Positions 19,199 through 37,653 of a stretch of DNA of 38,234 nucleotides are shown here, in pieces. The position numbers and the translations under genes were made by a program. Numbering within the stretch: the first letter of the stretch is position 1; each line of letters opens with the position of its first letter. A model generated the notes under the pieces. That model saw only the letters and a list, made by a program, of their open reading frames with translations, had not been told where the DNA came from and searched no databases. This DNA is from Phycisphaerae bacterium (GTDB taxonomy: Bacteria > Planctomycetota > Phycisphaerae > Sedimentisphaerales > Anaerobacaceae), in assembly GCA_018055905.1 (NCBI GenBank), contig JAGPGT010000002.1, forward strand, positions 1 through 38,234, written 5' to 3'.

Positions 19199-20776
19199 TT
19201 ACGATACCGGCAGCAGGGGACGTCGGATGCGACCGACGACCTCCTGGCTCTCCATGGACTCCTGTTGACGGTATCGACGTATCTTTTCTCGCAAGGTGCG
19301 ATCGCTGATGCCAAGGACTTTGGCCGCCCGGGTCTGGTTACCGGAGGTTTGTCGCAACGTGTCGAGAATCGCCCGACGCTCAATCTCGTCCAGCGGGATA
19401 CCTCCCAACCCGGTCGACTCCTCGGCCGACGAAACGGGCCGTATGGCAGGCGAAACGAATTTGGATTTGGCTTCTTGCCCGATCGTCACATTTTGCGTGG
19501 AGGAGAGCTGCCGCGATTCCGTCAGCGGCTGCAACTCGTCGAACAGCCAGCTGACGTCTGCCAGAGACAGGACCGGACCGGAGCCCAGGATCAGCGAGGT
19601 CAGCACGACGTTGCGCAACTGCCTGACGTTGCCCGGCCAGTGATATCGGGAGAAGATTTCCATCATCGTCGGGTCGAGCGATTCGATTCTCCGCTCTGTC
19701 TCCTTGGCATAGAGATTGACGAAATGCCAGGTCAGTTCGGGCAGGTCCTCCAGCCGTTCCCGGAGCGGGGCCGCCACGATGCGTGCGGCGCTGAGACGAT
19801 AGTACAAGTCCGGACGAAACCGGCCCATCTGCACTTCGTGAAGCAGATCCCGGTTTGTCGTACTGATGATTCGCACGTTCACTTTGATGTTGTCGTTGCC
19901 GCCGACCCGTTCGAACTCCTGTTGTTCGATGATGCGGAGCAGCTTGGCCTGGAACGTGGGAGGAGTTTCCGTGATTTCGTCAAGCAACAGGGTACCGCCG
20001 TGGGCCATTTCGAATCGGCCCTTGCGCTGGGTGTAGGCGCCGGTGAACGCCCCTTTCTCGTGTCCGAACAGTTCGCTTTCCAGAAGGCTGTCGCTCAAGG
20101 CGGCGCAGTTGACCCGCACAAAAGGTCCCATCGCTCGTCGACTTCTGTGGTGGATCAGCAGAGAGATCAATTCCTTGCCTGTCCCACTTTCGCCGGTGAT
20201 CAGCGCCGGAACCGAGGTCGGAGCGATCCTCTCGGCCAAGGCGATAGTCTGAAGCATTCGAGGACTTTTACCGACGATTTGGTACAAGCAGTGGTCGCCT
20301 TCCTGGGCCGACGCCGCGGTCGCCACCCGCCGATTCGGCAGCAAGGTGTCGAGAATTTCTTCAAGGGCCTGAGGATTCAGGGGTTTGAGCAAGAAATTCC
20401 GACAACCGGCTTGGATGGCCCGGACGGCTGCCTGCGTCCCCCAGTACAGGTCGCGCGTTTGCGACGGTTCTGCCGAACGCCCGGACATCATGACCACGGG
20501 CATCTCGGGAGCGACCGATCGCATGGCGGCGAGCAATTCAAAGCCACCCGACGGGCCTTTGACACCGGTAATCTGTTCGCTCAAAAACGCCAGATCGCAC
20601 GGGGCGCGGTCCAAAGCGTCCATCGCCGCTTTGCGTCCGCCGGCCAGCTTGGCGCTGATACCTTTGCGCGCGAGGACCTCCAGCATGAGCCGGATGGTCT
20701 GTGGTTCGTCGTCCACGATCAGGACAGAGGCGCCGTAATGAGGAATTGAGGATGACTGTATAGCTCGTTGATTCAT
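19199..20776 (-). CDS. Sigma-54-dependent activator with degenerate receiver (NtrC/FleR-like)
   Basis: A 525-residue activator: receiver-like domain (about 15-145), AAA+ domain (about 168-400) and Fis-type helix-turn-helix (about 470-505, GNQTRAAKVLGISDRTLREKI). The AAA+ part is complete: GESGTGKE (195-202), GAFTGA (242-247) for sigma-54 contact, and TLLLDEI for Walker B. The receiver keeps the acidic pocket V-D-D-E (21-24), S98 and K131, but the phosphoacceptor Asp is replaced by Ser66 (DLAFLSEQ), and extra residues follow it. It probably works without classical phosphorylation. Its operon starts at a sigma-54 promoter, so autoregulation is possible. It lies between a TPR gene and fliL. Confidence 0.92.
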   Translation of the reverse strand: MNQRAIQSSSIPHYGASVLIVDDEPQTIRLMLEVLARKGISAKLAGGRKAAMDALDRAPCDLAFLSEQITGVKGPSGGFELLAAMRSVAPEMPVVMMSGRSAEPSQTRDLYWGTQAAVRAIQAGCRNFLLKPLNPQALEEILDTLLPNRRVATAASAQEGDHCLYQIVGKSPRMLQTIALAERIAPTSVPALITGESGTGKELISLLIHHRSRRAMGPFVRVNCAALSDSLLESELFGHEKGAFTGAYTQRKGRFEMAHGGTLLLDEITETPPTFQAKLLRIIEQQEFERVGGNDNIKVNVRIISTTNRDLLHEVQMGRFRPDLYYRLSAARIVAAPLRERLEDLPELTWHFVNLYAKETERRIESLDPTMMEIFSRYHWPGNVRQLRNVVLTSLILGSGPVLSLADVSWLFDELQPLTESRQLSSTQNVTIGQEAKSKFVSPAIRPVSSAEESTGLGGIPLDEIERRAILDTLRQTSGNQTRAAKVLGISDRTLREKIRRYRQQESMESQEVVGRIRRPLLPVS

Positions 20777-20794: not shown

Positions 20795-21772
20795 CTACAA
20801 CTGAGGCGTGGCGGCGACCGGTCCGGACCGGCTCTTCTGATACCAAGTAATCAATCGCCCATGGGCTTTCGCCAACTCGGTCCAAGGCGACTGGGGGTAC
20901 TCGGAGACAAGCTTCATGTACGTTTCTTGGGCCTTGTTTGCATCGGTTTCTCGGAGGCAGTTACCGAGCTGAAAGAGGATCCAGGCGCGGTCGGCATCGT
21001 AGGAAGGATCGATTCGATTGATCCGATCGAGCGCCTTGGCGTAGAACGGCGCCGCTTCCACAGGGCGTCCGCTCAGGAACAGCAACTCCGCCATCTCCAG
21101 CGGATCCCGAACTTGGTTGGGATTTTGCTGGAGCAGATCCAACGTCTTCTGAGTTTTGTTGGATGGGGATGCCGACGACCCGGCCGCCACCGTTGCGGAA
21201 GCGGTTGGTTTCGCTGGGACCGGGCTCGGGCCGATTTCCGGCGATGGTGGCTTGGACGGAGATTCGTCGGGGACCTTGAATGCCGGCCCCGCGTCTTTGC
21301 TGGCGAATTTTACGGATCGGACTTGGTGGATCAGACGCTTGAGAGCCAAACTCTCTTCGACGTCCTGAGTCGTCTCCGGCATGGCGATTCGACTCGACCA
21401 GAGTTCCTGGAAGAGCGAACTCTTCGAATCGGTGTTCTCGCGAGAGGTGATTTCCCCGCGGCGGATCGGTCCGGCGTTCTCCAAGGCCTTGGCCTGATTT
21501 CGCGTGCGGTCGAGCAGCTTGGCCAGAGGGATCGGCGTGTTCGATGTTTCGGAAGGCACAGTTCCTCCCGGCCCCCTTGGGCCGACGGCGCAGGGATCGG
21601 TGAGCCCGCCCTCCGCATAGGCGGGCGTCTGACTGCGGGCGGTTACGCGAGGTTGACCGGCGTTGGCGGCCGCGAGAGCCTTGACACAGAGGAGCGCAGA
21701 CAAGATCACGCATGTTCTTGCCGGGGGCGAATTCCAAAGGGTTGTTTTCATGGTTATTGAATCCTTTTTCAT
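20795..21772 (-). CDS. Exported TPR-repeat protein in the flagellar operon
   Basis: A 325-residue protein: signal peptide (RTCVILSALLCVKALAAANA, ending near residue 38), a long low-complexity Pro/Ser/Thr region (about 40-205) and a TPR block at the C-terminus (about 220-318; PLEMAELLFLSGRPVEAAPFYAKAL, AWILFQLGNCLRETDANKAQETYMKLV, SEYPQSPWTELAKAHGRLITWY). It is probably periplasmic. The start is uncertain: ATG 21772 or ATG 21751; both leave the signal intact. It follows the large TPR membrane protein by 15 bases and precedes the activator by 18. It may dock with that protein. Confidence 0.75.
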   Translation of the reverse strand: MKKDSITMKTTLWNSPPARTCVILSALLCVKALAAANAGQPRVTARSQTPAYAEGGLTDPCAVGPRGPGGTVPSETSNTPIPLAKLLDRTRNQAKALENAGPIRRGEITSRENTDSKSSLFQELWSSRIAMPETTQDVEESLALKRLIHQVRSVKFASKDAGPAFKVPDESPSKPPSPEIGPSPVPAKPTASATVAAGSSASPSNKTQKTLDLLQQNPNQVRDPLEMAELLFLSGRPVEAAPFYAKALDRINRIDPSYDADRAWILFQLGNCLRETDANKAQETYMKLVSEYPQSPWTELAKAHGRLITWYQKSRSGPVAATPQL

Positions 21773-21787
21773 TTTCCTGAGTTGTCC

Positions 21788-24433
21788 TCACGGGGCGAGA
21801 TTCACACCCGGTGATTTCTGTACGAAATTGGGGTCCGTCGCATTGTCGTACTGGTTCAGCATGACCGCCATCGCACGGTCGTACTGTCCTTGTTTGCGGT
21901 AAGCCTCCGCCAGCAGATCCAGAACAGGGGGCCTGTCTGCGACCGTTCCTCGCTCCAGCAGTTGCGAACACACGGAGATCGCCTGGCCGACCTGTCCCAG
22001 ACGCAGGCACGTGCGGGCCAATTCCCGACCGATCTGCTGGGCCTGCGGCCCTGGCTCGGCCATAGCGAACGCATCGCTGAGGGTCTTACGGGCCGATTCA
22101 AGGTCGCCATTGCTGATTTGGCATGCGGCCAGCTCCAATGCGACGCGGGCTTTGAGGTCCGGATTCGGAAGGAACTGTCCTTTTTCCTGCAGAAGGGAGG
22201 CCGCTTTATCCGTCAATCCGATCAAGCGAAGCACCTGGGACCGTAGCAGAAGCAACTCGATGCTTTCCTGCTGGGACAGTTGCCATCCATTGGTGGTTTC
22301 AAGCATGTGAAGGGCTTCCACGAGTTGGTTTTGCTCGATGTATGCTCGGACGAGCACGCCCACGGTTTCCACATATTGTTGACGGGACAAATCGCCCTTG
22401 AGTGCCAGCTTCAGTGCGACATGAGCCTGCTGCGGTTTGTGCAAGGCCAGATACGCTTTGCCCAGCAGAAGGCAAGCAGCATGGAATTCCGGCTGACTCT
22501 GGTCCCGCACGAGCGAGATATAACGATTGAGCCATTGAGCCGTCCGCTCGAAGTCCCCCACCTCGTATGCGCAGCGACCGGCGCCCAACGATGAAACGGT
22601 CTGGGATTCGATCGAGAGGCCGAGGTTGTACACTCTCTGATACAAGCCCCCCGCCTCCTCGAATTTCCCGGCCTTCATGGTCGCATCGGCCAGATGCAGA
22701 TACGCTGTGTCCGCCAAGTCTGTTCCCGGGTACACTTCCACGAGCTGTTTGAGGTCTGCGTGGGCCCCGACATAGTCGCGGAGCCGCACCTTCAGTTTGC
22801 CCGACTCCAGTAGAGATCGCGGGGCCAAGCCATGTTTGGGAAACCGGTTTGCGACCAGTTTGAACTCGCCGATGGCCTCGTCGAGCTGTCCCTGCAGGGT
22901 CTGGAGCAAGCCGAGGGCAAAGTGTCCGTTGGGGGCCCGCTGATCGGTTTCGGCAGTCAGGAGAAACCGCTGCCACAGGGAGATGGACTCCTCGGTCAAC
23001 AGTCGGGTGTGGTCGGAGAGAGAAGAGTAGGTCGTCGGGTCGATCACGTCGATGTTGTTGCTTTTGTCGTCGAACCGTGCGACCAGACCGACGCTGCCGG
23101 CGGCCACCGAGACCGCCTGTTGCGCCGTGGCCGCGGACAGATACAGATAGACGGGTCTTTTCCTCACATTCTCTTCGGCCGGACTGGCTTTGCCGTTGTC
23201 CATCCATCGCACGTTCAATCCGGCGTTGGAGGCAAACCGCGACAGCAGTTCTTCGATCGATGCCCCGTTGCAGACGACCACCCAGCGACCTGTCGCGCTG
23301 TTGCCGACAGCGGGGCGGATCTGCGGGCTCAGTGCTGCTTCGTCGAGTTTCTCGGACCCGGAAGCGAGAAAGACCCGCAACTGCGCCTCGTCCATGTCGA
23401 CGAAAGGATCGATGTCCGGATGGCGACCCCACAAATCCGACGGCAACCCCGTGTCGGCGTCGCTGAGCGACAGGAGATTACGGGACACCGCCTCGCAGAC
23501 CAGGAACCAACACTGCTGCTGGACGGCCTGCACCCATTTTTCGTCGATCTCCGCCACCCCGATCAGGCCGATCGTTTGATAGGCTCGACCGGCCGCTTCC
23601 AGATATCGTTTCCGCTCGATCAGCATCGTGCTCTGATAGTAGCGGGCCAGTGCTCGGAGGATCGGCAGGCGGCTCAGAGACACCGTTCGAAACAAGTTGT
23701 CAGCTTGGGCGATATCCCCGCTCTTGCTGCTGCACAAAGCCATGCGTAGAAGGAGAAAGTCGCGAAGCGGCTGGTTCTCATTCGTACTGGCGAGACGTCG
23801 GTGGAGTTTGTCGAAAGCAACGAACGCGTGTTCGTACTGGCGGTTCTGATAAAGCCTGGCGGCCAGTTGCAGCGACAACGGCTCAGGGCTGGGAATGCTC
23901 GATTCGATAAGGTCCGCCGGTTCGGATTGAGCGGGTGACAACGTTCCTAGCCGGGGCGTTTCGCGTCTGGAATCCCAGGTGCTCTGGGGGATTGATTGCG
24001 GCGCGCTCGTCGGAAGCGACGGCGCACCGAGGATCGCGGGCAGTTCTGCTCTCTGTTGTGACTGGGAGGTCCGGCCTGCATCGTCGTGGTGCGTAAGACG
24101 TGCCGCCAGTGCGTAAACCAGACCGGCTACCGTGACCAGAATGGCCAACCCCAGGAGCTTCTGAATATTTGAGAGTCGATTCAAATGCACAGAGGGGTGC
24201 GCCCTGCGAAAGGGGATAGGCCTGGGCGCCGCCGGAACGGGGGGGGCGGGTTCCGAGGCGAAGCCGACCGGCGACGAGAAGAGGTCGTCGTACGCCGGCT
24301 GTTCGGCCATCGGCACGCCAAAGAGGTCCCCATCGGGCGGCATGTGCGTTTGGCCCAGTTCTCCGCGGTTCGCTTGTTTCTTTCTTCGGAACATTATGTT
24401 TTGGCACAGGTTTTCCAGGTTTTCCTGGGACAT
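21788..24433 (-). CDS. Large single-pass TPR protein with secretin-N-like insert, first gene of the leftward flagellar operon
   Basis: An 881-residue protein of no named family. Order: cytoplasmic Pro-rich tail (1-90), one membrane helix (about 93-113), a Ser/Pro linker, TPR-like helices (about 185-315), an alpha/beta segment (about 382-467), then many TPRs to about residue 860 (for example HFALGLLQTLQGQLDEAIGEFKLV, YLHLADATMKAGKFEEAGGLYQRVY, LLGKAYLALHKPQQAHVALKLALKG). The inserted segment (GRWVVVCNGASIEELL, then SAATAQQAVSVAAGSVGL) looks like the STN/secretin N-domain fold that sits at the mouth of secretins and TonB receptors. As first gene after a sigma-54 promoter it is likely an early periplasmic scaffold. 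ATG 24433 was taken; ATG 24394 is the alternative. Confidence 0.75.
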   Translation of the reverse strand: MSQENLENLCQNIMFRRKKQANRGELGQTHMPPDGDLFGVPMAEQPAYDDLFSSPVGFASEPAPPVPAAPRPIPFRRAHPSVHLNRLSNIQKLLGLAILVTVAGLVYALAARLTHHDDAGRTSQSQQRAELPAILGAPSLPTSAPQSIPQSTWDSRRETPRLGTLSPAQSEPADLIESSIPSPEPLSLQLAARLYQNRQYEHAFVAFDKLHRRLASTNENQPLRDFLLLRMALCSSKSGDIAQADNLFRTVSLSRLPILRALARYYQSTMLIERKRYLEAAGRAYQTIGLIGVAEIDEKWVQAVQQQCWFLVCEAVSRNLLSLSDADTGLPSDLWGRHPDIDPFVDMDEAQLRVFLASGSEKLDEAALSPQIRPAVGNSATGRWVVVCNGASIEELLSRFASNAGLNVRWMDNGKASPAEENVRKRPVYLYLSAATAQQAVSVAAGSVGLVARFDDKSNNIDVIDPTTYSSLSDHTRLLTEESISLWQRFLLTAETDQRAPNGHFALGLLQTLQGQLDEAIGEFKLVANRFPKHGLAPRSLLESGKLKVRLRDYVGAHADLKQLVEVYPGTDLADTAYLHLADATMKAGKFEEAGGLYQRVYNLGLSIESQTVSSLGAGRCAYEVGDFERTAQWLNRYISLVRDQSQPEFHAACLLLGKAYLALHKPQQAHVALKLALKGDLSRQQYVETVGVLVRAYIEQNQLVEALHMLETTNGWQLSQQESIELLLLRSQVLRLIGLTDKAASLLQEKGQFLPNPDLKARVALELAACQISNGDLESARKTLSDAFAMAEPGPQAQQIGRELARTCLRLGQVGQAISVCSQLLERGTVADRPPVLDLLAEAYRKQGQYDRAMAVMLNQYDNATDPNFVQKSPGVNLAP

Positions 24434-24773: not shown

Positions 24774-26216
24774 TCAGCATGGGGAAGAAGACAGAGTCTT
24801 GATCGGCTCGGAAGCGGCCAGAGAGAATTCCTCGATGCTGGGTTTGTCTTTCTGCAGGTTGTACTGTTTGACCTTGGCATATAAGGTGGCGCGTGTGATC
24901 CCCAGCAGGGCTGCAGCCTGCGTCTTCTGCCAACCGGTCTCGTGCAGCGCGCGGGCGATCAGTTCGCGTTCGGCCTTTTCGAGCGAGAAGTCTTTCATGC
25001 GTCCCTCTTCGCTCCGGCCGGGGCGAGGTTCCCCGTCAATGGGGTCGATGACAATACTGGAAAGGCCGATTTTGTCCGTGGTTTCGAACAGGATAGCTCG
25101 CTCGATGACATTTCGAAGCTCTCGCACGTTACCCGGCCAGTCGTGCCGGGACAAGGCCTCAAGGGCAAGTTTTGTGATGGAAGAGACCGGAGTCGGTCGA
25201 TGCGAGCAAATGATCGAGGTCTTCAGGAAGTGCCGAGCCAGTAGCGGAATGTCTTCTCGCCGTGCCGGCGACCGCAGGGGCGCCATCATGATCGGGCAGA
25301 TGTTCAAGCGGTAATAGAGATCCTCGCGGAACCGCTTCTCTCGTACTTCCTTTTTAAGGTCGCGGTTGCTGGATGCGATGATTGTAGCTTTACACTCGAT
25401 GTCCTTGACGCCCCCGACCTTGCGGAACGATCGTTCCTGCAGAATCCGCAGAAGTTTGGCCTGCAGCTCCAAGGGCATCTCACTGATTTCGTCGAGGAAG
25501 ATCGTCCCGGTGCCCGCGGTTTCGAGTAGCCCGGTCTTGTCGCGGTCGGCGCTGGTGAACGAGCCTTTGACGTGTCCGAACAGTTCGCTTTCCAGCAGGG
25601 TGGCGGTCAATGCTGCGCAATTGACCGCGACGAACGGCTCTTCCCGATGGCGAAGGGTGTGCACCGCGCGGGCGGCGACTTCTTTCCCCGTGCCGGTGTC
25701 GCCAACGATCAGGATGGGATTGCACCGGCTGGCGGCGACGAGTTTGATCATCCGGAGCGTCTGGGCGATGGCGGGGCTTCGGCCGGCCATCGCCACCGAG
25801 GCGGCCGTCTCGTCAAGAAAGAACTCCGAGTCGTTGGGTTCGCAGGACTGTTTTGCGGGGGACTCTTGTACGGTTGCTGTAATCTCCCGCAGTCTCGCCA
25901 ACTCGTTCTGCCCTCGATGGCAGACGAGCAAACCCGCTTGCCGATACTGTTCCTCGCTGAAGGGACTGTCGCTCGCAGGAATCACGATTGCGGTCGGAAC
26001 CGCACGAGGGTCCTGTAATGTTGCCGTCAGGCAGTTTTGTAAATGGACGGGCGCAAATGCGCCCTCGAACACCACCAGGTTTGCGGACACCGTCGCGAGG
26101 ATGTCGGCCGCCTCTGCCAAATCGTCGGCCGCGAACACCTCCTGGGCCAACTCCTGGGCGACGGCATGAATCTGAGAGTTCTTGCTGACGACGACGATTC
26201 TTTTCAGATGACTCAT
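24774..26216 (-). CDS. Second sigma-54-dependent activator with pseudo-receiver and variant GAFTGA loop
   Basis: A 480-residue activator: receiver-like domain (about 1-120), AAA+ domain (about 143-385) and Fis-type helix-turn-helix (about 425-460, WQKTQAAALLGITRATLYAKVKQYN). Walker A is GDTGTGKE (172-179) and Walker B IFLDEI (239-244). The sigma-54 contact loop reads GSFTSA (218-223) instead of GAFTGA; the key Thr remains. The receiver lacks the Asp pair (VVVSKNSQ) and the phosphoacceptor (LVVFEGAFAP), as in FleQ/FlrA-type master regulators. The start at 26216 is preferred because the 31 residues possible upstream do not look like protein. It sits between the two sigma-54 promoters and is the best candidate to control both. 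Confidence 0.9.
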   Translation of the reverse strand: MSHLKRIVVVSKNSQIHAVAQELAQEVFAADDLAEAADILATVSANLVVFEGAFAPVHLQNCLTATLQDPRAVPTAIVIPASDSPFSEEQYRQAGLLVCHRGQNELARLREITATVQESPAKQSCEPNDSEFFLDETAASVAMAGRSPAIAQTLRMIKLVAASRCNPILIVGDTGTGKEVAARAVHTLRHREEPFVAVNCAALTATLLESELFGHVKGSFTSADRDKTGLLETAGTGTIFLDEISEMPLELQAKLLRILQERSFRKVGGVKDIECKATIIASSNRDLKKEVREKRFREDLYYRLNICPIMMAPLRSPARREDIPLLARHFLKTSIICSHRPTPVSSITKLALEALSRHDWPGNVRELRNVIERAILFETTDKIGLSSIVIDPIDGEPRPGRSEEGRMKDFSLEKAERELIARALHETGWQKTQAAALLGITRATLYAKVKQYNLQKDKPSIEEFSLAASEPIKTLSSSPC

Positions 26217-26352
26217 ATCTACCCGAGGGTCTGACTTCTTTGGCTCACCGATGATTGTTTTGTCACCTTCATGGAGACACCCCCCTGATCGACTGGTGGT
26301 TCGTGACATCTTTAATTTTTATTGGACGCCATGTGCGTCACTCGCTGGTTTT

Positions 26353-26468
26353 GAAGCGGGTCAGTGACATCAGGAAGTTCTTTTATGGGACGGTCCGAAA
26401 AGACGGGTCGGACCGGGATGCGGTGCGGTTGATATGAACAGGAAGCGGGTCCGTCTTCTTATGGGACG
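26353..26468. repeat. Paired direct repeat: GAAGCGGGTC ... TTATGGGACG
   Basis: GAAGCGGGTC occurs at 26353-26362 and 26442-26451, each followed by a short pyrimidine-rich link and TTATGGGACG at 26383-26392 and 26459-26468. The two half-strings keep their order, but the inner distance differs (20 against 7 bases). It lies upstream of the minus-strand activator and about 210 bases or more before the flgD promoter. It could be a regulatory duplication or a remnant of a short repeat. Confidence 0.5.
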
Positions 26469-26540
26469 CACAATTGTCACGAGGCAGGCGTGAGTCGGAT
26501 GCCAACATTCTCGCGACGCGTGGCAAATTTTTCCAGAAGG

Positions 26541-26555
26541 AGGAAGAATCTTCCT
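26541..26555. promoter_or_regulatory. Perfect 15-base dyad, candidate activator binding site
   Basis: AGGAAGA, A (26548), TCTTCCT: a perfect palindrome whose centre is about 157 bases before the predicted flgD start point. This is the distance at which sigma-54 activators bind upstream. No identical dyad was found near the leftward promoter, so the link to an activator is an inference. Confidence 0.4.
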
Positions 26556-26677
26556 GACGCTTGCGCCGGCGGCTTTTTTTACGCCGCTCTTCGAAAATCG
26601 TCAGAAAGTCGTTCGATCAGGTTCGCCGGCTTGATCGGGGCGGATTCTGTCGGAACTTTCTCAAGGAAATCTCATGG

Positions 26678-26694
26678 CTGGCACACTCATTGCT
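26678..26694 (+). promoter_or_regulatory. Consensus sigma-54 promoter of the rightward flagellar operon
   Basis: CTGGCAC (26678-26684), ACTCA, TTGCT (26690-26694) fits the YTGGCAC-N5-TTGCW consensus with correct spacing. Predicted transcription start is near 26705, leaving a leader of about 69 bases to the flgD ATG. It is nearly the same as the promoter at 24491-24507, so both operons should fire together. Confidence 0.88.
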
Positions 26695-26773
26695 CTGGTT
26701 TTTCCGTCGGACGCCGCAGGTTTGATCCGGCGGCGCGCCCCAGTGTGCCTACTTCTAGAAGGAGCGTCAAACG

Positions 26774-27157
26774 ATGGTTGTGACAGGGACCGCGAGTACC
26801 GCCAGTGACATCCAGATGGATTATATGAAGCTGCTGGTGACCCAACTGCAGAATCAAAATCCCCTGGAACCGATGGACAATAAGGATATGACGGCGCAAC
26901 TGGCGCAGTTTTCCCAGCTTCAGCAGATGGAAAGCCTGAATCGTTCGTTCGGCAAGGTACTCGATTCCGTCCAACGCAGTTATGCCAGTTCGCTGGTCGG
27001 TCGGGAGATTTCGTTTGAGAGTTTCAACGAGGTCGGTCAGGCCGAAACCCGAACCGGAAAGGTGGAGGAGGTTGCCGTGGGCGATGCGGGGGAGATCGTC
27101 CTGACGGTCAACGGTGCGAACGTCAATTTGTCGGATGTCGTGTCGATTCGCGACTGA
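26774..27157 (+). CDS. flgD: Hook-capping (hook scaffolding) protein FlgD, short form
   Basis: A 127-residue FlgD, needed at the tip of the growing hook for FlgE assembly. The conserved N-terminal core is clear (about 14-56: DYMKLLVTQLQNQNPLEPMDN, then AQLAQFSQLQQME). After SLVGREISF only a small beta domain remains. The usual Ig-like/tudor C-terminal pair is missing, so it is about half the length of E. coli FlgD (231). AAGGAG lies 10 bases before the ATG, and the stop is complete, with flgE after 39 bases. This looks like a natural short variant rather than a break. Confidence 0.9.
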   Translation: MVVTGTASTASDIQMDYMKLLVTQLQNQNPLEPMDNKDMTAQLAQFSQLQQMESLNRSFGKVLDSVQRSYASSLVGREISFESFNEVGQAETRTGKVEEVAVGDAGEIVLTVNGANVNLSDVVSIRD

Positions 27158-27196
27158 TGGCACATCCGCATTTCCAAGAATTAGGAGAAGACCTAC

Positions 27197-28885
27197 ATGT
27201 CTTACGCGTTGTCCTCAGGCGTGACCGGGTTGCAGGCCCATCAACAGATGTTGGACGTCGCCGGCAACAACATTGCGAATGTGAATACGACCGCATTCAA
27301 GTCCAGTCGGATCGGATTCGCGGAACTGCTGAGCCAGACTCTTTCCCAGGCTTCTCAGCCGACCTCGCAGGTCGGCGGAACGAATCCGCAGCAGATGGGC
27401 AGCGGCGTCGGAATCGCCGCGATTACCCCGAATATGACCCAAGGCAGCATCGTCAACACAGGGAATCCGCTGGACGTGGCGATCGAAGGAGAGGGCTATT
27501 TCGTGGTCAGCAACGGCGATCAACAGCTCTACACGCGAGCCGGTGCTTTCGGGGTGGACGAAAACGGTCACCTGGTCGACCCGGCCACCGGCTATCGTGT
27601 GCAGCGGATCGGTTTGACCGGTGAACTCGAGGGGTTCCAGATCACAGGCGACAGCAGCATTCGGATTCCGTACGACGTCGCCTTGCCGGCCAAGGCCACC
27701 AGCGAGATCGCGTTCACCGGCAACCTTAGTGCCGACGCCGTGGGCGTCGCGAAGGCGCAGGTGCTTTCCTCCAGTCTTACCTACAAGACCGCCGACGGGA
27801 TCGAAGCTTTGGCGACTACGGAGATCGATCAGCTCGTTCAGTTCAGCGGAGGCTCGGGCGCCGGCGGCCAGTTGGGCGGCGGTCAGACAGGCACGCTGAC
27901 CTTCTCCGGCTATAACAAGGACGGAACCCCTCTGAGCACCGGTCTGACGTTCACGGTCACGGGAACCACGACTCTGGGGGACCTGATCGATCACCTCAAC
28001 AACAATGTATTGACCGACGCCACCGCGTCTTTAACCAACGGCAAGATCATAATCACCGATAACGAAGCGGGATACAGTAGAACCGATCTTTCGATGTCGT
28101 ATTCAGGCAGCGGTTCGTTGCAGACTCCCCCCTATTTCGAGATGACCACTGTTGGGGGCAATGAATCCAAGACCATGAACATCGCGATATACGACACGCA
28201 GGGTGCCAAGCATGTTTTGTCGGCAACCCTCGTGCGGACCGACACCATCAACACCTGGGACCTGATTCTGACTTCCATCACGGGCAATGTTCTGGAACTC
28301 AGTCCCGAGAATCGACGTGTTCATGGCTTGACGTTCGATCCCCAAAGCGGCGCGTTTATGGGGCTTCCGAGCACCGAAGTGCCTCAGTTCGTTATTTCTT
28401 TCACACACGATCCGTCACACACCCAGACCATCTCATTGAAACTGGGGACCCTCGGTTCGTTCGACGGGCTCACCCAGTTCGCGGGCAACTCCACCGCAGT
28501 GGCCAGAGAACAAAACGGGTACGAGGCGGGAAGTCTGTCGGCGGTCTCGGTCAGCGGCGACGGCGTGTTGATCGGAGCTTTCACCAATGGTGTCAAGAAG
28601 GACTTGGCGACCTTGGCGGTGGCCTTGTTCCGCAACCCTGCGGGTCTTCAGAGCGCCGGAAATGGGTACTTTGCCCCTTCGGCCAACAGCGGCGGGGCGG
28701 TGTTGACCCAGGCCGGCAGCAGCGGTGCCGGCTCCATCCATGGCAGTGCTCTGGAGAAGTCGAACGCCGATGTGGCCACGGAATTCGTCAGCTTGATCGA
28801 GGCCCAGAACGGCTTTCAGGCGAATGCTCGCACCATCCGCGTGGCCAATGACATCCTTCGCGAGTTGACAAGTCTGATTCGGTAA
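27197..28885 (+). CDS. flgE: Flagellar hook protein FlgE
   Basis: A 562-residue hook subunit exported by the flagellar type III system. The N-terminal rod/hook motif is ALSSGVTGLQAHQQMLDVAGNNIANVNTTAFKSS. A D1 strand region follows (GNPLDVAIEGEGYFVV, YTRAGAFGVDENGHLVD), then a long D2/D3 region (about 150-440), and the C-terminal coil LIEAQNGFQANARTIRVANDILRELTSLIR. It is larger than Salmonella FlgE (403) because of the outer domains. AGGAGAA precedes the ATG. It stands between flgD and the PilZ gene, the second gene of the operon. Confidence 0.95.
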   Translation: MSYALSSGVTGLQAHQQMLDVAGNNIANVNTTAFKSSRIGFAELLSQTLSQASQPTSQVGGTNPQQMGSGVGIAAITPNMTQGSIVNTGNPLDVAIEGEGYFVVSNGDQQLYTRAGAFGVDENGHLVDPATGYRVQRIGLTGELEGFQITGDSSIRIPYDVALPAKATSEIAFTGNLSADAVGVAKAQVLSSSLTYKTADGIEALATTEIDQLVQFSGGSGAGGQLGGGQTGTLTFSGYNKDGTPLSTGLTFTVTGTTTLGDLIDHLNNNVLTDATASLTNGKIIITDNEAGYSRTDLSMSYSGSGSLQTPPYFEMTTVGGNESKTMNIAIYDTQGAKHVLSATLVRTDTINTWDLILTSITGNVLELSPENRRVHGLTFDPQSGAFMGLPSTEVPQFVISFTHDPSHTQTISLKLGTLGSFDGLTQFAGNSTAVAREQNGYEAGSLSAVSVSGDGVLIGAFTNGVKKDLATLAVALFRNPAGLQSAGNGYFAPSANSGGAVLTQAGSSGAGSIHGSALEKSNADVATEFVSLIEAQNGFQANARTIRVANDILRELTSLIR

Positions 28886-28980
28886 GTCGGAAAGGGATTT
28901 CTGCGGATCACGAGAACCGAGGACCAGCGAATCTGAAGTCCCTGAAATCCAGGGGCTGCCGCGTGTGGTTGGGGGAACCT

Positions 28981-30234
28981 ATGCTGTGGATCGAGAACAT
29001 CATGTTGACGCTATCGCCCCTGGAGCGATGGGAAGCGGCGCGTCGGTTGAACACCGACCGCTCCTACAACGACAGCTTCACCGTTCTGGCGGGGATTCTG
29101 CTGGTGGTGCTCGTGGTGTTGCTGATCTGGGTCAGCTATACGCGGCGGGCGCAACGGCGCGCCCAGACCCGCGAGGTCTTCGCGGAGAACGCAATGCGAC
29201 GGGGGTTGGGAGCCCGCGATCGGCAGATTCTGCTGGCGATCGTGATGCGAAGCGGTCTGCGGCGGACGCAGGACGTGTTCACCGCGGTCGATGCGTTCGA
29301 TCGCGGCGCCTTGAAGCTGATTTCCGAATGCATGCGGACTCGTACGCCCGACGAGAACGAACACTTGCGGGCGGAAATTGGTCGTTTGAGAGAAAAACTG
29401 GGGTTCCAGATCGCCTCGCCCGTCGGTGGGATCGTAGGTTTGGGCCAGGCCAGCAGTCGGGACATCCCGATCGGCCGGTCCGTGGAACTGGTCCGCAACG
29501 GTTCGCCTGAAGAAGGGGTCGTCCGGGGCGACGTGATGAGAAACGATGAGATCGAATTCGCCATCATGTTGAAGGAACCTCTTGTCAGCAAACCCGGGGA
29601 CTCCTGGCGGGCGAGATATTACAGCGGCCTGTCCGCCTGGGAATTCGATACGTCGACGGTGCGATGCGACGGACGTAAACTGATTTTGAACCATAGCGAC
29701 ACCGTGCAGTCGACGAATCGCCGGCGCTTCCCTCGTGTGTCGGTTCGAGGTCACGCGTTGATCGCGTATTTGCCGTTTCGACAGGGACGCGTCTGCCGGG
29801 TGGACATGAGCTCCGATGGGATCAAGACGGTCTTGGGGGCGGCCGGCAACCGCCTGGAGAGCGAGACCCCGACCTTCACGGAAGGTCGCGTGACTGAATT
29901 GGCGGGTCCTGGATTGCTGCTCGACGCCCCGATTCAGGTGCATCCCGGAGATCGGGTTCTCGTGGTGTTTACGCTCGATCCCGGCATGGCACCCAGAGTG
30001 CCCGGTGGGTGGGGCACCATCGCGGCGATCGGCAAGGTCAGACACGGTCGCAGCACCGACAGCGGAATGTCGATCGCGGTGGAACTGACCGGGTTGACCG
30101 ACGCGGAGGTGGACGAACTTGCGTACATTACGGCCGAGATCTCCTCGCGGCAGGAGGAGACCGAAGGGCCCGGTGTGATTCCGGCGGCGGGTCTGTCTTC
30201 CCCCGTTTCGGCCGCAAACGGAGAATGGGCATAA
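28981..30234 (+). CDS. Membrane-anchored YcgR/PilZ-type flagellar brake protein
   Basis: A 417-residue protein with one membrane helix (34-53), a cytoplasmic helical linker (about 60-140), a YcgR-N/flagellar-brake-like barrel (about 160-240; IPIGRSVELVRNG, GDVMRNDEIEFAIMLKEP) and a PilZ domain (about 247-390). Both cyclic-di-GMP motifs are present: R248-R-F-P-R252 (RxxxR) and D275-M-S-S-D-G280 ([D/N]xSxxG). YcgR slows the motor when it binds cyclic-di-GMP, so this protein probably does likewise from a membrane-bound position. The ATG at 28981 has GGGGGA just upstream; a GTG at 28963 is possible. It sits between flgE and flgF, which is unusual. Confidence 0.85.
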   Translation: MLWIENIMLTLSPLERWEAARRLNTDRSYNDSFTVLAGILLVVLVVLLIWVSYTRRAQRRAQTREVFAENAMRRGLGARDRQILLAIVMRSGLRRTQDVFTAVDAFDRGALKLISECMRTRTPDENEHLRAEIGRLREKLGFQIASPVGGIVGLGQASSRDIPIGRSVELVRNGSPEEGVVRGDVMRNDEIEFAIMLKEPLVSKPGDSWRARYYSGLSAWEFDTSTVRCDGRKLILNHSDTVQSTNRRRFPRVSVRGHALIAYLPFRQGRVCRVDMSSDGIKTVLGAAGNRLESETPTFTEGRVTELAGPGLLLDAPIQVHPGDRVLVVFTLDPGMAPRVPGGWGTIAAIGKVRHGRSTDSGMSIAVELTGLTDAEVDELAYITAEISSRQEETEGPGVIPAAGLSSPVSAANGEWA

Positions 30235-30249
30235 CTTGGGGAATCTGAC

Positions 30250-30981
30250 GTGACGGACATCGGAGCCCAAATCAGCGCCAGCCTGAACGCCCTGACACGG
30301 GAGTTCGATATCGTTGCGCACAACATGGCCAACGTCAGCACCGTGGGCTTCAAACGCCGCTGCAACAGCTTCACAAAGGTGCTCGCGTCGCAGGAGAGTT
30401 CCCAAGACTCGGGCCCGGAGGAGTCCGAGCAAACCCAGGGCTTGTTCGATTTCTCACAAGGCAACCTACTGCCGACGGGGAGGACACTGGATCTGGCGTT
30501 GCACGGGCCGGGGTTCTTCGTGATCGAAACCCCGGAAGGCCCGGTCTATACGAGACATGGCGTTTTTCAGACGAATCAGAACGGCCAGATCGTGGACACA
30601 ACGGGGCGGATCGTGGCCGGGACCGCGGGACCGTTGATTGTGCCGCCGGAAACCGACGTGGGGGACGTGTACGTCACCGAAGACGGTCGTGTCCTTGCCG
30701 GCCAGGCGGAGATCGGCAAGCTTCGACTCGTCGAGTTCCTCAACAGCCAGAACCAGCTCGTGGCGGTGGGGCAGAATTGTTTTCAGGCCCCCCAAGACGT
30801 CACGCCGACGGAGGCTCTGAACGTGGTGGTCAAGCAAGGCTACCAGGAGGCGTCCAACGTGAGGCTCGTCGATGAGTTGGTGAATATGATCCTCGTGTCG
30901 AGGATGTACGAGGCGAATATGAAGTTGGTTTCCGTCAAGAAAGAGGCGTCAAGCGCCGCTCTCGGCGTCGCCATGGGATGA
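30250..30981 (+). CDS. flgF: Flagellar basal-body rod protein FlgF
   Basis: A 243-residue proximal-rod protein. The N-terminal motif is LNALTREFDIVAHNMANVSTVGFKRR. The central part has LDLALHGPGFFVIETPEGPVYTRHGVFQTNQNGQIVDT. The C-terminal rod coil is QGYQEASNVRLVDELVNMILVSRMYEANMKL. The GTG start has GGGGA seven bases upstream. It precedes flgG, its closest paralogue, which is the longer distal-rod form with FSLGEFHNT and LYAKMKEPG. The gap of 95 bases to flgG has no gene. Confidence 0.9.
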   Translation: MTDIGAQISASLNALTREFDIVAHNMANVSTVGFKRRCNSFTKVLASQESSQDSGPEESEQTQGLFDFSQGNLLPTGRTLDLALHGPGFFVIETPEGPVYTRHGVFQTNQNGQIVDTTGRIVAGTAGPLIVPPETDVGDVYVTEDGRVLAGQAEIGKLRLVEFLNSQNQLVAVGQNCFQAPQDVTPTEALNVVVKQGYQEASNVRLVDELVNMILVSRMYEANMKLVSVKKEASSAALGVAMG

Positions 30982-31076
30982 GAATGACCTCGCATAGATG
31001 ATTCACGGGAGATAACCAAGGGACGGTCTTGACGGCGGATCGCGGGTCGTCGGCCATAATCAATGGAGAAAAGCAT

Positions 31077-31862
31077 ATGCTGCGAGCGTTTTCCACCTCT
31101 GCCACGGGCATGATGGCCCAGGAGACCCTGGTGGATGTGATCGCCAACAACCTGGCGAACGTCAACACTACGGGTTTCAAACGCAGCCAGATCGAGTTTC
31201 AGGACTTGTTGTACGCCAAGATGAAAGAGCCCGGCACGGAAATCGCGCCGGGGGTCAACGCTCCGACCGGGATGGAAGTGGGCACCGGCGTTCGTGTGGC
31301 GTCCACGTTGCGCGTGTTCAGTCTCGGGGAATTCCACAACACCCAGCGCAGTATGGACATTGCCATCCGAGGGAACGGGTTTTTTCAGGTGCTCATGCCC
31401 AACGGCGATCTCCGGTACACACGGGACGGATCGCTGACAACCAACGCGAATGGACAACTCGTGACCCTGTCGGGATACCAGATCGAGCCGGCGATCACCA
31501 TTCCTCCCGACGCCGCGACGGTCGACATCGGCACCGACGGCGGCGTCAATGTCACGAATACCGAAGGCGTCCGCTCGGTCGTGGGGACGATTCAGATTGC
31601 CCGTTTCGTGAATCCTTCCGGCCTGATCAGTCAAGGCGACAATTTGTTCACCCCCAGCGACGCCAGCGGCCCCCCGGTGGTGGGGACGGCCGGACAGGAA
31701 GGTTTCGGAGAGATCCAATCCGGATTCCTTGAGAAGTCCAATGTCAACATGGTGACTGAGCTGGTGAATCTGATCACCGCTCAGCGGGCGTACGAGATCA
31801 ACTCCCGGGCGATTCGGGCCGGCGACGAGATGCTCCGCAATACGAGCAACCTCTTCCACTAG
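31077..31862 (+). CDS. flgG: Flagellar distal rod protein FlgG
   Basis: A 261-residue distal-rod subunit, the length typical of FlgG. It starts MLRAFSTSATGMMAQETLVDVIANNLANVNTTGFKRS at the ATG preceded by GGAGAA; the frame is open 16 codons further but that part looks non-protein. FlgG-specific features: FQDLLYAKMKEPG after the first helix, GVRVASTLRVFSLGEFHNT, then DIAIRGNGFFQVLMPNG. The C-terminal coil is EKSNVNMVTELVNLITAQRAYEINSRAIRAGDEML. It is followed after nine bases by flgA. Confidence 0.96.
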   Translation: MLRAFSTSATGMMAQETLVDVIANNLANVNTTGFKRSQIEFQDLLYAKMKEPGTEIAPGVNAPTGMEVGTGVRVASTLRVFSLGEFHNTQRSMDIAIRGNGFFQVLMPNGDLRYTRDGSLTTNANGQLVTLSGYQIEPAITIPPDAATVDIGTDGGVNVTNTEGVRSVVGTIQIARFVNPSGLISQGDNLFTPSDASGPPVVGTAGQEGFGEIQSGFLEKSNVNMVTELVNLITAQRAYEINSRAIRAGDEMLRNTSNLFH

Positions 31863-31871
31863 GGGATAGTC

Positions 31872-32861
31872 ATGGAACGTGAGCTCTTCTGCATCGTACT
31901 GGTGCTGTTAGTGGCGGGGGGGCCGGCGGTGTCTCCGCCCGCGGAAGGGGCGGAGTCCGCGGAGGCACTTCTGCAGGTTCATCTGCCTCGGGAAATCACG
32001 GTCCCCGGAAGTTTTCTGACGCTGGGCCAGATCGGCGTCCTTCGGGGCGATCCGTCACAGGTGGCTAAGGCCGGAGGAATCGGCCTGGGACAGCTCTCGA
32101 CTCCGGGACAACGCGTGGTGTTGGATCGCCCGACGATTCTCAGTCGGCTGGCCTCCTCGGGCATCCCGGCTGATCGGGTCCGGCTGACGGGCGCCGAGAC
32201 GGTGGCGGTTCGCCGTTTTCATCGGGTCATCAGCTCCGAGGAACTGATCGAGATCGGTCGCACGTTCCTGCGTCAGCATCCGCCGGCGCCGAGGATTCAT
32301 GATGCGGTTTGTCCGGTCAGGCCGAAGGAAGTGGTTCTGTCGTCGGACGTTGCGGATTTGCAGGTGTTGCCCCGGTTCATCCGGAGCCAGGCGCGCGGCC
32401 TGGTCGCTGTGCAGATCCTTGTGACCGCCGACGGAAACGAGGTGGGGGTTCGGGATCTTTCGTTCCGGCTCAAGTACCAAGTAAGGCGCGCGGTGACGAC
32501 CCGGGAGATCGCCGAAGGGACGGTTTTGACCCCGGAGGACATGAGGATCGAGACAATCGTGTCCGACCAGCCCGAGCCGGCAGGCTGGAGGGCGCCGTAC
32601 GGGTTCGTCGCGGTGCGCAAGCTGCCGGAAAACACTGAGCTTCGGTCGGATCTGGTCGTCGCCGCCCAGAGTCCGATCGTGGTTCAGCGCAACCGAGGCG
32701 TCGTCATTCGCATCGAACGCCCGGGCCTGACCATCACGGCCAACGGTACCGCTCTGCAAGAGGGGCGGGTCGGAGACCTTGTCAAAGTCAAGAACGCCGA
32801 CTCGAACCGGGTCATCGTGTGCAAAGTGAACGCCGACGGGACCGTCGAGCCGACGCTGTAA
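31872..32861 (+). CDS. flgA: P-ring assembly chaperone FlgA
   Basis: A 329-residue periplasmic protein with signal peptide (1-27, ending near AEGAES). The SAF/ChapFlgA domain starts near residue 200: REIAEGTVLTPEDMRIE, GFVAVRKLPENTELRSDLV, and the final VVIRIERPGLTITANGTALQEGRVGDLVKVKNADSNRVIVCKV, the FlgA hallmark. The extra N-terminal region (about 30-200) is longer than in the 219-residue E. coli protein. AGGGGAT precedes the ATG. The order flgA-flgH-flgI fits chaperone, L ring and P ring. Confidence 0.92.
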   Translation: MERELFCIVLVLLVAGGPAVSPPAEGAESAEALLQVHLPREITVPGSFLTLGQIGVLRGDPSQVAKAGGIGLGQLSTPGQRVVLDRPTILSRLASSGIPADRVRLTGAETVAVRRFHRVISSEELIEIGRTFLRQHPPAPRIHDAVCPVRPKEVVLSSDVADLQVLPRFIRSQARGLVAVQILVTADGNEVGVRDLSFRLKYQVRRAVTTREIAEGTVLTPEDMRIETIVSDQPEPAGWRAPYGFVAVRKLPENTELRSDLVVAAQSPIVVQRNRGVVIRIERPGLTITANGTALQEGRVGDLVKVKNADSNRVIVCKVNADGTVEPTL

Positions 32862-35682: not shown

Positions 35683-37653
35683 ATGCAGAATTTTTCGATA
35701 GGACTCAGTGGTCTCAATGCCGCGTCCAGCGCGTTGGAGGTGATCGGAAACAACATCGCCAACGCCTCGACGGCGGGGTACCATCGTCAGAGAGTGGAGC
35801 TCACTCCGACGACTTACGGCAGGATGGCTCAGAATGCCGTCGGGGCCGGAGTGGACATCGCGGGCGTAACGCGGCTGATCGACAAGCTGCTGGAGGCCGA
35901 GATCATGCAGCAAGGCTCCAGTTACGAGCAGATCTCGCAGGAACTGTCCATTCTGACCGCGGTGGAGACGACGTTCGGTGAATTTGCCGAAGGCAGCGGT
36001 CTGAACGCGACGATCGACGCGTTTTTCGACTCTTTGCGAGGGTTGGCCGCCCATCCTTTGGAGCGAGTGTGGCGCAACGACGTGGTCAGTTGCGCCGAGG
36101 TCATGTGTAGCGAATTCCGACGCATGGGGGCTTCCCTGAGCAACCTTGAGGACCAGGTTGTGCTCGAGGCGAAAAACACCGGCGAATCGATCAACTCTCT
36201 GATCAAACAGATCGCCGAACTCAACGGCAAGATTCAAGTCATCGAGATCAGCCAGGGACAGGCCAACAACCTCCGCGATCACCGAGACCAATTGATCGTG
36301 GAGCTGGCAAAGCTGGCAAGCGTGGAGACAACGGATCGGGAACATGGCATCGTCGATGTCTCCATGGGGGGGCTGCCGATCGTCACGGGAGCGATCACCG
36401 TGGAGATCCAGGTCGGATTGCGGGACGACGGTTCCCTCGGAGTCTCGGCGGGCAACAGCAACGGTTACGGGATCACCGTGCAGGGCGGTCGGCTCGGCGG
36501 CCTGATGTCGTTGAAGAACGAGTTGCTCCAGGGGATCGCGACCGATCTGGACCATCTGGCCCAAGAGATCGTCGCCAGCGTCAATCAAATCCATGTGCAG
36601 GGATTGGGCGTCAGCGGCTCGTTCACAGAGCTCAGCGGGGGGACCCTCGATGCCACTTCCTTGGTCGGCAAGGACGCCAGGGTGAAGGACGGAACGTTCT
36701 ACATCCGCGTGACAAACACTGCCACGGGGGAAATCAACCGCTATGAGATCGACGTGAACGCTTCGGGCGCCTCGCCCGACACGTCGCAGACGATCGCCGC
36801 GAAGATCAACGCGATTCCGGGCCTGAATGCTTCGATTCTCTCGTCTCGTCTGCACATTGTGGCCGATTTAGGATACAAATTCGATTTTGTTCCGGCCGTC
36901 ATGTCGGAGCCTACAGCCGTTGCGTTCACCGGGAGTTCGCCTCCTACCGTTACTCTCTCGGGCATCTACAAGGGAGACCAGAACGACACGTTCACCTTCA
37001 CGGTAGTCGGTACCGGAACCGTCGGAAACGGCAACCTCCGGCTCGACGTGACCGACGGCAACGGAGATCTGGTCAGTACGGTCAACATCGGTGGGGGGTA
37101 TGCCGCCGGCGACGTCATCGAACTTTTCAACGGCATTCAGATCTCCATCAGCACCGGGAATCTGAACGCAGGGGATTTCTTCCAGACACTGGGGTTGGCC
37201 AGCTCCGACACCTCAGGGTTTCTGGCGGCCGCAGGCATGAATACGTTCTTTTCGGGCGACAGCGCCGGAAAGATGCAACTTGTGGACAGCATTGCCGGAA
37301 CGCCGGACCGGATCGCCACTGCGTATGGTGCGGATCTGACCGATAACATCGCGGCCCTGCGTCTGGCGGCGGTGCGGGATCAGGGATTAGACGGTCTTAC
37401 CGGCATGACCCCCAGCGAGTACTACCATCGCATCGTGGCCAACATCGGCCAACAGGTCGATCTGCGGGAATCCCGACAGTCCAATGTGGAAGCGATGATT
37501 CAAAACCTCGAAAACCGGCGGAGCGAAATCAGCGACGTCAACATCAACGATGAAGCGGCCCAGTTGATGATCTTCGAGAAGATGTTTCAGGCCGTGGCCA
37601 AGTATCTGACCACTCTTCAGTCGATTATGAACACATTGATGGGGATGGTTTGA
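35683..37653 (+). CDS. flgK: Hook-filament junction protein FlgK (HAP1)
   Basis: A 656-residue junction protein. The N-terminal coil is FSIGLSGLNAASSALEVIGNNIANASTAGYHRQRVEL, and the FlgK-specific helical region follows (SILTAVETTFGEFAEGSGLNATIDAFFDSLRGLAAHP, NLRDHRDQLIVELAKLASVE). A large variable region (about 270-540) precedes the C-terminal NVNDEAAQLMIFEKMFQAVAKYLTTLQSIMNTLM-like coil. It is longer than Salmonella FlgK (553). AGGATGG precedes the ATG. flgL follows after nine bases. Confidence 0.95.
   Translation: MQNFSIGLSGLNAASSALEVIGNNIANASTAGYHRQRVELTPTTYGRMAQNAVGAGVDIAGVTRLIDKLLEAEIMQQGSSYEQISQELSILTAVETTFGEFAEGSGLNATIDAFFDSLRGLAAHPLERVWRNDVVSCAEVMCSEFRRMGASLSNLEDQVVLEAKNTGESINSLIKQIAELNGKIQVIEISQGQANNLRDHRDQLIVELAKLASVETTDREHGIVDVSMGGLPIVTGAITVEIQVGLRDDGSLGVSAGNSNGYGITVQGGRLGGLMSLKNELLQGIATDLDHLAQEIVASVNQIHVQGLGVSGSFTELSGGTLDATSLVGKDARVKDGTFYIRVTNTATGEINRYEIDVNASGASPDTSQTIAAKINAIPGLNASILSSRLHIVADLGYKFDFVPAVMSEPTAVAFTGSSPPTVTLSGIYKGDQNDTFTFTVVGTGTVGNGNLRLDVTDGNGDLVSTVNIGGGYAAGDVIELFNGIQISISTGNLNAGDFFQTLGLASSDTSGFLAAAGMNTFFSGDSAGKMQLVDSIAGTPDRIATAYGADLTDNIAALRLAAVRDQGLDGLTGMTPSEYYHRIVANIGQQVDLRESRQSNVEAMIQNLENRRSEISDVNINDEAAQLMIFEKMFQAVAKYLTTLQSIMNTLMGMV

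Follow-up and report, generated by a model that had tools for sequence, protein, structure and literature searches.

Does a PilZ-protein gene that separates hook from rod genes in a planctomycete flagellar operon encode a cyclic-di-GMP brake for the motor? PilZ genes are readily labelled as such brakes on motif strings alone, and the first-pass annotation of this locus proposed a membrane-tethered brake with both ligand motifs intact. We followed this up in the window, i.e., the whole 38,234-nt stretch of DNA analysed (contig JAGPGT010000002.1 of a Phycisphaerae bacterium), and in related genomes. The analysis established computationally the gene, its place, its membrane anchor, its fold class and a change in one ligand motif. 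Judging from the sequence, the protein is unlikely to be an ordinary cyclic-di-GMP brake, and its binding of cyclic-di-GMP is doubtful.

The gene spans positions 28981–30234 (+ strand, stop codon included) and encodes a membrane-anchored YcgR-like (PilZN-PilZ) protein of 417 aa, as indicated by the open frame, homologues and a conserved Met. An alternative GTG start is found at 28963, 18 nt 5' of the ATG at 28981. The ATG aligns with a Met kept in close relatives and is therefore the better of the two, in agreement with the start assumed originally. Residue numbers refer to the 417-aa ATG-based protein unless GTG numbering is stated. Pfam also confirmed the described position between hook and rod genes: flgE (27197–28885, +) ends 95 nt upstream, and 15 nt separate the gene from flgF (30250–30981, +). 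Among the nine window proteins searched with Pfam, flgD was located at 26774–27157 on the + strand, and flgF is followed on the same strand by flgG, flgA, flgH and flgI. The window also contains flgK at 35683 and encodes FliL and a FliMN_C protein of 337 aa; FliG is present in the same genome. A scan of positions 26000–32000 for sigma-70-like and terminator-like sites, with sigma-54 and sigma-28 types outside its scope, revealed neither on the + strand of the flgE–flgF interval. Beside the flagellar genes, the opposite strand carries two sigma-54 activator genes (19202–20776 and 24774–26306, both −), of which one encodes a receiver domain. Two adjacent TPR-repeat proteins of 325 and 881 aa are encoded amid the flagellar genes at 20798–24433 (−) and are possible motor scaffold parts.

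The protein comprises four parts, all encoded on the + strand. A membrane helix at about residues 33–57 (29077–29151) has a hydropathy peak of 3.14 and falls within a predicted helix at 27–73. It is followed by a helical region at about residues 58–143 (29152–29409), NpzN-like by position only, which is conserved in the alignment and whose predicted helices have mostly pLDDT <50, including those at residues 78–139 in the NpzN position. A PilZN-like (YcgR N-terminal) barrel at about residues 157–246 (29449–29718) was assigned from predicted strands and fold matches, and a PilZ barrel at about 247–396 (29719–30168) from fold matches and a Pfam PilZ match below cut-off. With a membrane segment called at a hydrophobic peak >1.6 within the first 120 or so residues, all 40 homologues having an N terminus carried one, and none had a segment beyond residue 120; in eight of the 40, a second hydrophobic stretch preceded the main one in the stop-to-stop frame. 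This confirms the membrane helix reported for the window protein. The C-terminal flank of the segment was the more positive in 34 of the 40 homologues, with four ties and two against. By the positive-inside rule, the PilZ end most likely faces the cytoplasm, the side that the proposal of a brake had presupposed.

AlphaFold2 was run on the window protein with three relatives. Mean pLDDT was 52.9 and pTM 0.33 for the full length, compared with 71.0 and 0.50 for residues 150–396, the four other models being at 50 or below. In a Foldseek search with the full model, the nine best solved matches were all chains of MotI, VCA0042, PP4397, YcgR and MrkH (E 5e-9 to 8e-6); TM-scores were low because the two domains are turned differently. 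The best solved matches of the trimmed model were VCA0042, MotI, MrkH and YcgR, with PP4397 not among the matches listed. VIA gave MotI at Z 13.9 over 191 residues (rmsd 15.1), the Alg44 PilZ domain at Z 13.3 over 108 residues (rmsd 2.9), the N domain of E. coli YcgR at Z 8.2 over 93 residues, and 2l1t at Z 10.4, the last two being matches of the PilZN-like barrel. Both Foldseek and VIA thus place models of low to middling confidence in the PilZN-then-PilZ fold, and the suggested YcgR-like N-terminal barrel was recovered, the models behind it being weak. Sequence searches of solved structures, with the single protein or a 41-sequence profile and E up to 10, returned nothing PilZ-like, so relatives among solved structures were found by fold comparison only. 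Pfam PilZ (PF07238) scored 19.4 bits on the window protein, below the gathering cut-off of 22.5, and matched 13 of 41 family members at E 0.1 or better (best 5.4e-7). The family profile aligned with E. coli YcgR over 16 columns at a probability of 3.1; this comparison was used for the Arg motif alone.

The two ligand motifs fared differently from each other. Motif counts were made over 43 order members, namely the window protein, 40 relatives, L057 and L122. RxxxR is intact, as annotated: it reads RRFPR at residues 248–252 (29722–29736, +), with R248 and R252 present, and is kept in 40 of the 43. The string DMSSDG at residues 275–280 (29803–29820, +), on which the claim of an intact DxSxxG rested, was rejected as the ligand site. 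It sits in a variable, gap-rich loop with conservation percentiles of 0–20 in the 41-sequence alignment and pLDDT <50, and a [D/N]xSxxG string occupies these columns in only three of 41 members (window, L007 and L011). Such strings elsewhere in L009, L021, L033 and L042 are off the true motif column. Shuffling the window protein produced the string somewhere in 3911 of 20000 cases (19.6%).

The in-register position is instead ELAGPG at residues 306–311 (29896–29913, +), and it is altered in the whole order. Its register was obtained from the family alignment and from a profile comparison with four canonical-motif planctomycete proteins (probability 99.4, 283 columns), in which VTELAGPGLLL lies opposite LKDLSAGGLAL; the Pfam PilZ alignment pairs residues 307–387 (GTG numbering) with profile positions 24–97. 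A small MAFFT alignment was discarded in favour of the profile comparison, as it placed E. coli YcgR 12 columns out at the second motif. Structure prediction puts ELAGPG in a turn that links two PilZ strands, and the second motif of solved PilZ proteins forms the β2–β3 turn (PMC3131395). None of the 43 members has [D/N]xSxxG at this site. The first position is never D or N and is E in 39; Ser is found at the third position in seven, only in families f4 and f7; the fourth is Gly in all 43, the fifth Pro in 41 and the sixth Gly in 35. With Gly and Pro this constant in the place of the canonical motif, the site is conserved in a different form. The Ser of f4 and f7 would be consistent with stepwise departure from an ancestor that had the canonical motif. 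Retention of RRRFxR together with conservation of ExxGPG speaks for a site that is still in use, whether with a weak or different ligand or in a protein contact.

To our knowledge, E. coli YcgR, Pseudomonas FlgZ/PP4397, B. subtilis MotI and V. cholerae VCA0042, which share the PilZN-PilZ fold and RxxxR with the window protein, have been described without a membrane helix. MotI carries the full [D/N]xSxxG motif. The same is true of VCA0042, YcgR and PP4397 (PMC3131395, PMC6093933), and these proteins differ in this from the window family. Pseudomonas FlgZ is YcgR-like and co-transcribed with flagellar genes (PMC6093933), a flagellar-gene setting common to it and the window gene. The statement that known YcgR proteins are soluble proved too strong: a membrane-helix class, YcgR-NpzN, has been published from Spirochaetales, with a long membrane helix, an NpzN helical domain, PilZN and PilZ (PMC11800159). 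The same paper gives Galperin and Chou credit for the helical part and reports YcgR-like genes often near flagellar genes, in 3433 of 11980 neighbourhoods. The window protein runs likewise from membrane helix through a helical region, a candidate NpzN by its position, to PilZN and PilZ. It differs in the second motif, since YcgR as defined there carries RxxxR and [D/N]hSxxG (PMC11800159), whereas the window family has ExxGPG. A membrane-anchored YcgR-like protein is therefore not without precedent, and both the anchored plan and the proximity of YcgR-like genes to flagellar genes are already known. Among the titles and abstract openings listed in our search of open-licence literature, none described this gene, and the search turned up no account of the ExxGPG form or of PilZ genes flanked by flgE and flgF. 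XCC6012 and XAC1133 resemble the window family as PilZ folds with an incomplete ligand motif (PMC3131395). In that account XAC1133 acts via protein partners, and XCC6012 keeps SxxG and has no RxxxR, the reverse of the window family; no plan of membrane helix plus PilZN is apparent for either in its passages on these proteins.

The tie of the gene to flagella was also established computationally. A whole-genome search of the source genome and 60 relatives detected a homologue in 41 of the 61. Neighbours were counted at 41 other loci, comprising those of the 40 other genomes and of G350. The gene is followed by flgF in all 41 (the L013 match, at a contig end, is weak, 7e-4) and preceded by flgE in 40, the exception being L007, where the contig starts inside the gene. 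With full FlgI defined as >160 bits, a threshold chosen in this analysis, 45 of the 61 genomes encode it, and G002 has a partial FlgI at a contig end. The gene is present in 40 of these 46 genomes and absent from 14 of the 15 relatives without full FlgI. The fifteenth, G020, has flgE and flgF adjoining the gene, and its FlgI would fall past the contig end. Counted as flagellated on account of these neighbours, with no full FlgI found, it brings the totals to 41 of 47 flagellated genomes and 0 of 14 others. In nearly the whole order the gene remains linked to flagellar genes, with another conserved sequence standing in for the latter half of the ligand motif. Most of the 61 genomes (e.g., G000:C287:2245-2874), genomes without full FlgI included, also encode a FlgI-like paralogue of about 550 aa, which scores about 53–100 bits to PF02119.

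The six flagellated genomes without the gene are G021, whose contig ends inside flgF, and five of family f5. In the stretches fetched around the f5 loci, flgF, flgG, flgH and flgI were found and no homologue of the gene. The FlgI and FlgH of these genomes (G040, G045, G049, G057 and G060; loci L046–L050) are divergent. Family f5, which belongs to the same order as the window, perhaps has a different flagellar system.

A profile search of 391 phylum genomes, in which at most four candidates were scored per genome, gave strong matches (>350 bits) in at least seven genomes, all of the same order, and weak matches (25–45 bits) in at least 13 others. Two of the 13 weak-match genes lie between flgE and flgF, in G424 (f80) and G111 (f56). 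Searching with the G424 protein added G428 (f80), with a homologue between frames read as flgE and flgF, and in G221 (f68) a relative lies directly 3' of flgE, with flgF 5.5 kb off. Five planctomycete homologues, L073 and L131 (f80), L058, L063 and L068, have the plan of the window protein, from membrane helix and helical region to a PilZN-like part and PilZ. The two f80 loci are likewise between flgE and flgF, while the other three are not beside the flg genes searched. All five differ from the window family in having canonical second motifs (DLSAGG, DLSLGG, DISAGG, DLSGGG and NISIGG). Neither ligand motif can be recognised in the one relative from f56 or the one from f68, and Pfam gave no PilZ match for either. 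Both of these relatives, L097:926-2032 (G221) and L072:6806-7897 (G111), follow flgE, keep the membrane helix and have an N terminus that is similar by eye.

A wider sample took one FlgI locus per genome from 40 genomes. flgE was visible in 15, and a family member came next in two of them (L122 of the same order and L097 of G221); the other 13 gave no family match after flgE with E up to 10. The arrangement is therefore not a general feature of the phylum. The setting between flgE and flgF described for the window thus extends only partly within the phylum. It holds in the same order outside f5 always where visible, and in two f80 genomes; other families have more degenerate relatives, with one f56 gene in that place and one f68 gene just after flgE, and the 13 sampled loci lack the arrangement. 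At or near the same operon place, the motif is accordingly canonical in f80, altered in the order of the window and lost in f56 and f68. This series allows a direct test of whether the motor can be served by a YcgR-like protein that does without cyclic-di-GMP. Short proteins of other planctomycetes (L062, L064–L067, L069 and L070; frames of 155–200 aa) resemble the family in its membrane helix and helical region only. Together with L061 they were set aside, having the anchor and helical part only and not lying beside the flg genes searched.

On the best reading, to which we give about an even chance, the protein is a YcgR-like component of the motor, dedicated to flagella, anchored in the membrane and carrying a remodelled pocket. 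The N-terminal helix would anchor the protein in the inner membrane, with the helical region and the PilZN-PilZ pair on the cytoplasmic side, where stators and C ring act. The ligand site would have been remodelled order-wide, the Arg-rich RRRFxR entrance staying and [D/N]xSxxG giving way to ExxGPG. The protein may then modulate the motor or act as a docking part associated with it, and its motor contact would be independent of ordinary cyclic-di-GMP binding or reliant on a weakened or different ligand. Cytoplasmic side, motor contact and loss or change of ligand are all three what we infer. This reading is supported by the distribution among flagellated and other genomes and the fixed neighbours, by the constant membrane segment and the PilZN-PilZ fold, by the different conserved residues in place of a canonical second motif, and by a separate PilZ protein in the same genome with both motifs and no helix. 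YcgR itself offers a precedent, as its general C-ring contact is said to be independent of cyclic-di-GMP; FliG and FliM are its known partners (PMC8203827). The low to middling confidence of the structure models counts against a remodelled component, as do several points that favour a true brake.

A cyclic-di-GMP brake with its own anchor would still bind the ligand through RRRFxR and Glu and, once loaded, slow the motor at MotA, FliG or FliM. In the original proposal, co-expression with flgE and flgF would supply one brake for each motor being built, and the anchor might position it near the stators or the C ring. The retention of RxxxR in nearly all members fits this and would be odd for an idle pocket, and Glu for Asp is a mild change. 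Myxococcus PixB binds cyclic-di-GMP despite substitution of the second motif in both PilZ domains (PMC8316039), and the proteins matched by fold have the PilZN-PilZ pair, with cyclic-di-GMP present in the solved structures of several. In two f80 genomes, the relative that occupies this operon position has its second motif in canonical form. GGDEF matches occur on three contigs of the source genome, and cyclic-di-GMP is probably made there. Yet the protein was not classed as a canonical brake because the defining [D/N]xSxxG, looked for at its true site, was found in no order member, with even the third-position Ser restricted to seven. The f56 and f68 relatives without both motifs and the Pfam PilZ score under cut-off also speak against a brake, which we regard as somewhat unlikely. 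Less probable still is a ligand-free factor with an assembly or structural role in hook, rod or motor, in which the anchor and helical region would be the active part and PilZN-PilZ a protein-binding platform. The location between hook and rod genes would suit such a factor, and so would the f56 and f68 relatives, which keep the helix and a similar N terminus and have no ligand motifs or PilZ match. However, the 13 sampled loci without a family gene indicate that such a gene is not generally required for building hook and rod, and the best fold matches include the flagellar motor brakes MotI and YcgR (functions in PMC8203827).

Within the reading of a remodelled motor component, we tentatively suggest, as possible rather than probable, that in this order a YcgR-like brake became a permanent membrane-anchored motor part, its RRRFxR…ExxGPG pocket being without cyclic-di-GMP or holding a different ligand, and that a separate PilZ protein with intact motifs serves cyclic-di-GMP. 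A PilZ search of the source genome missed the window protein and found two others. One is a 109-aa stand-alone PilZ with NISKTG. The other, of 286 aa (G000:C51:12422-13279; L124:1138-1998), carries RRSYFR and DISAGG, scores 39.4 bits with Pfam PilZ and has no membrane helix (hydropathy peak 0.97). It gave no phmmer match to the window protein, and there is thus no sign of recent duplication between them. Matches to it occur in 45 of the 61 relatives, including seven of the 14 that lack both the gene and full FlgI, and it is therefore not tied to flagella as the flgE–flgF gene is.
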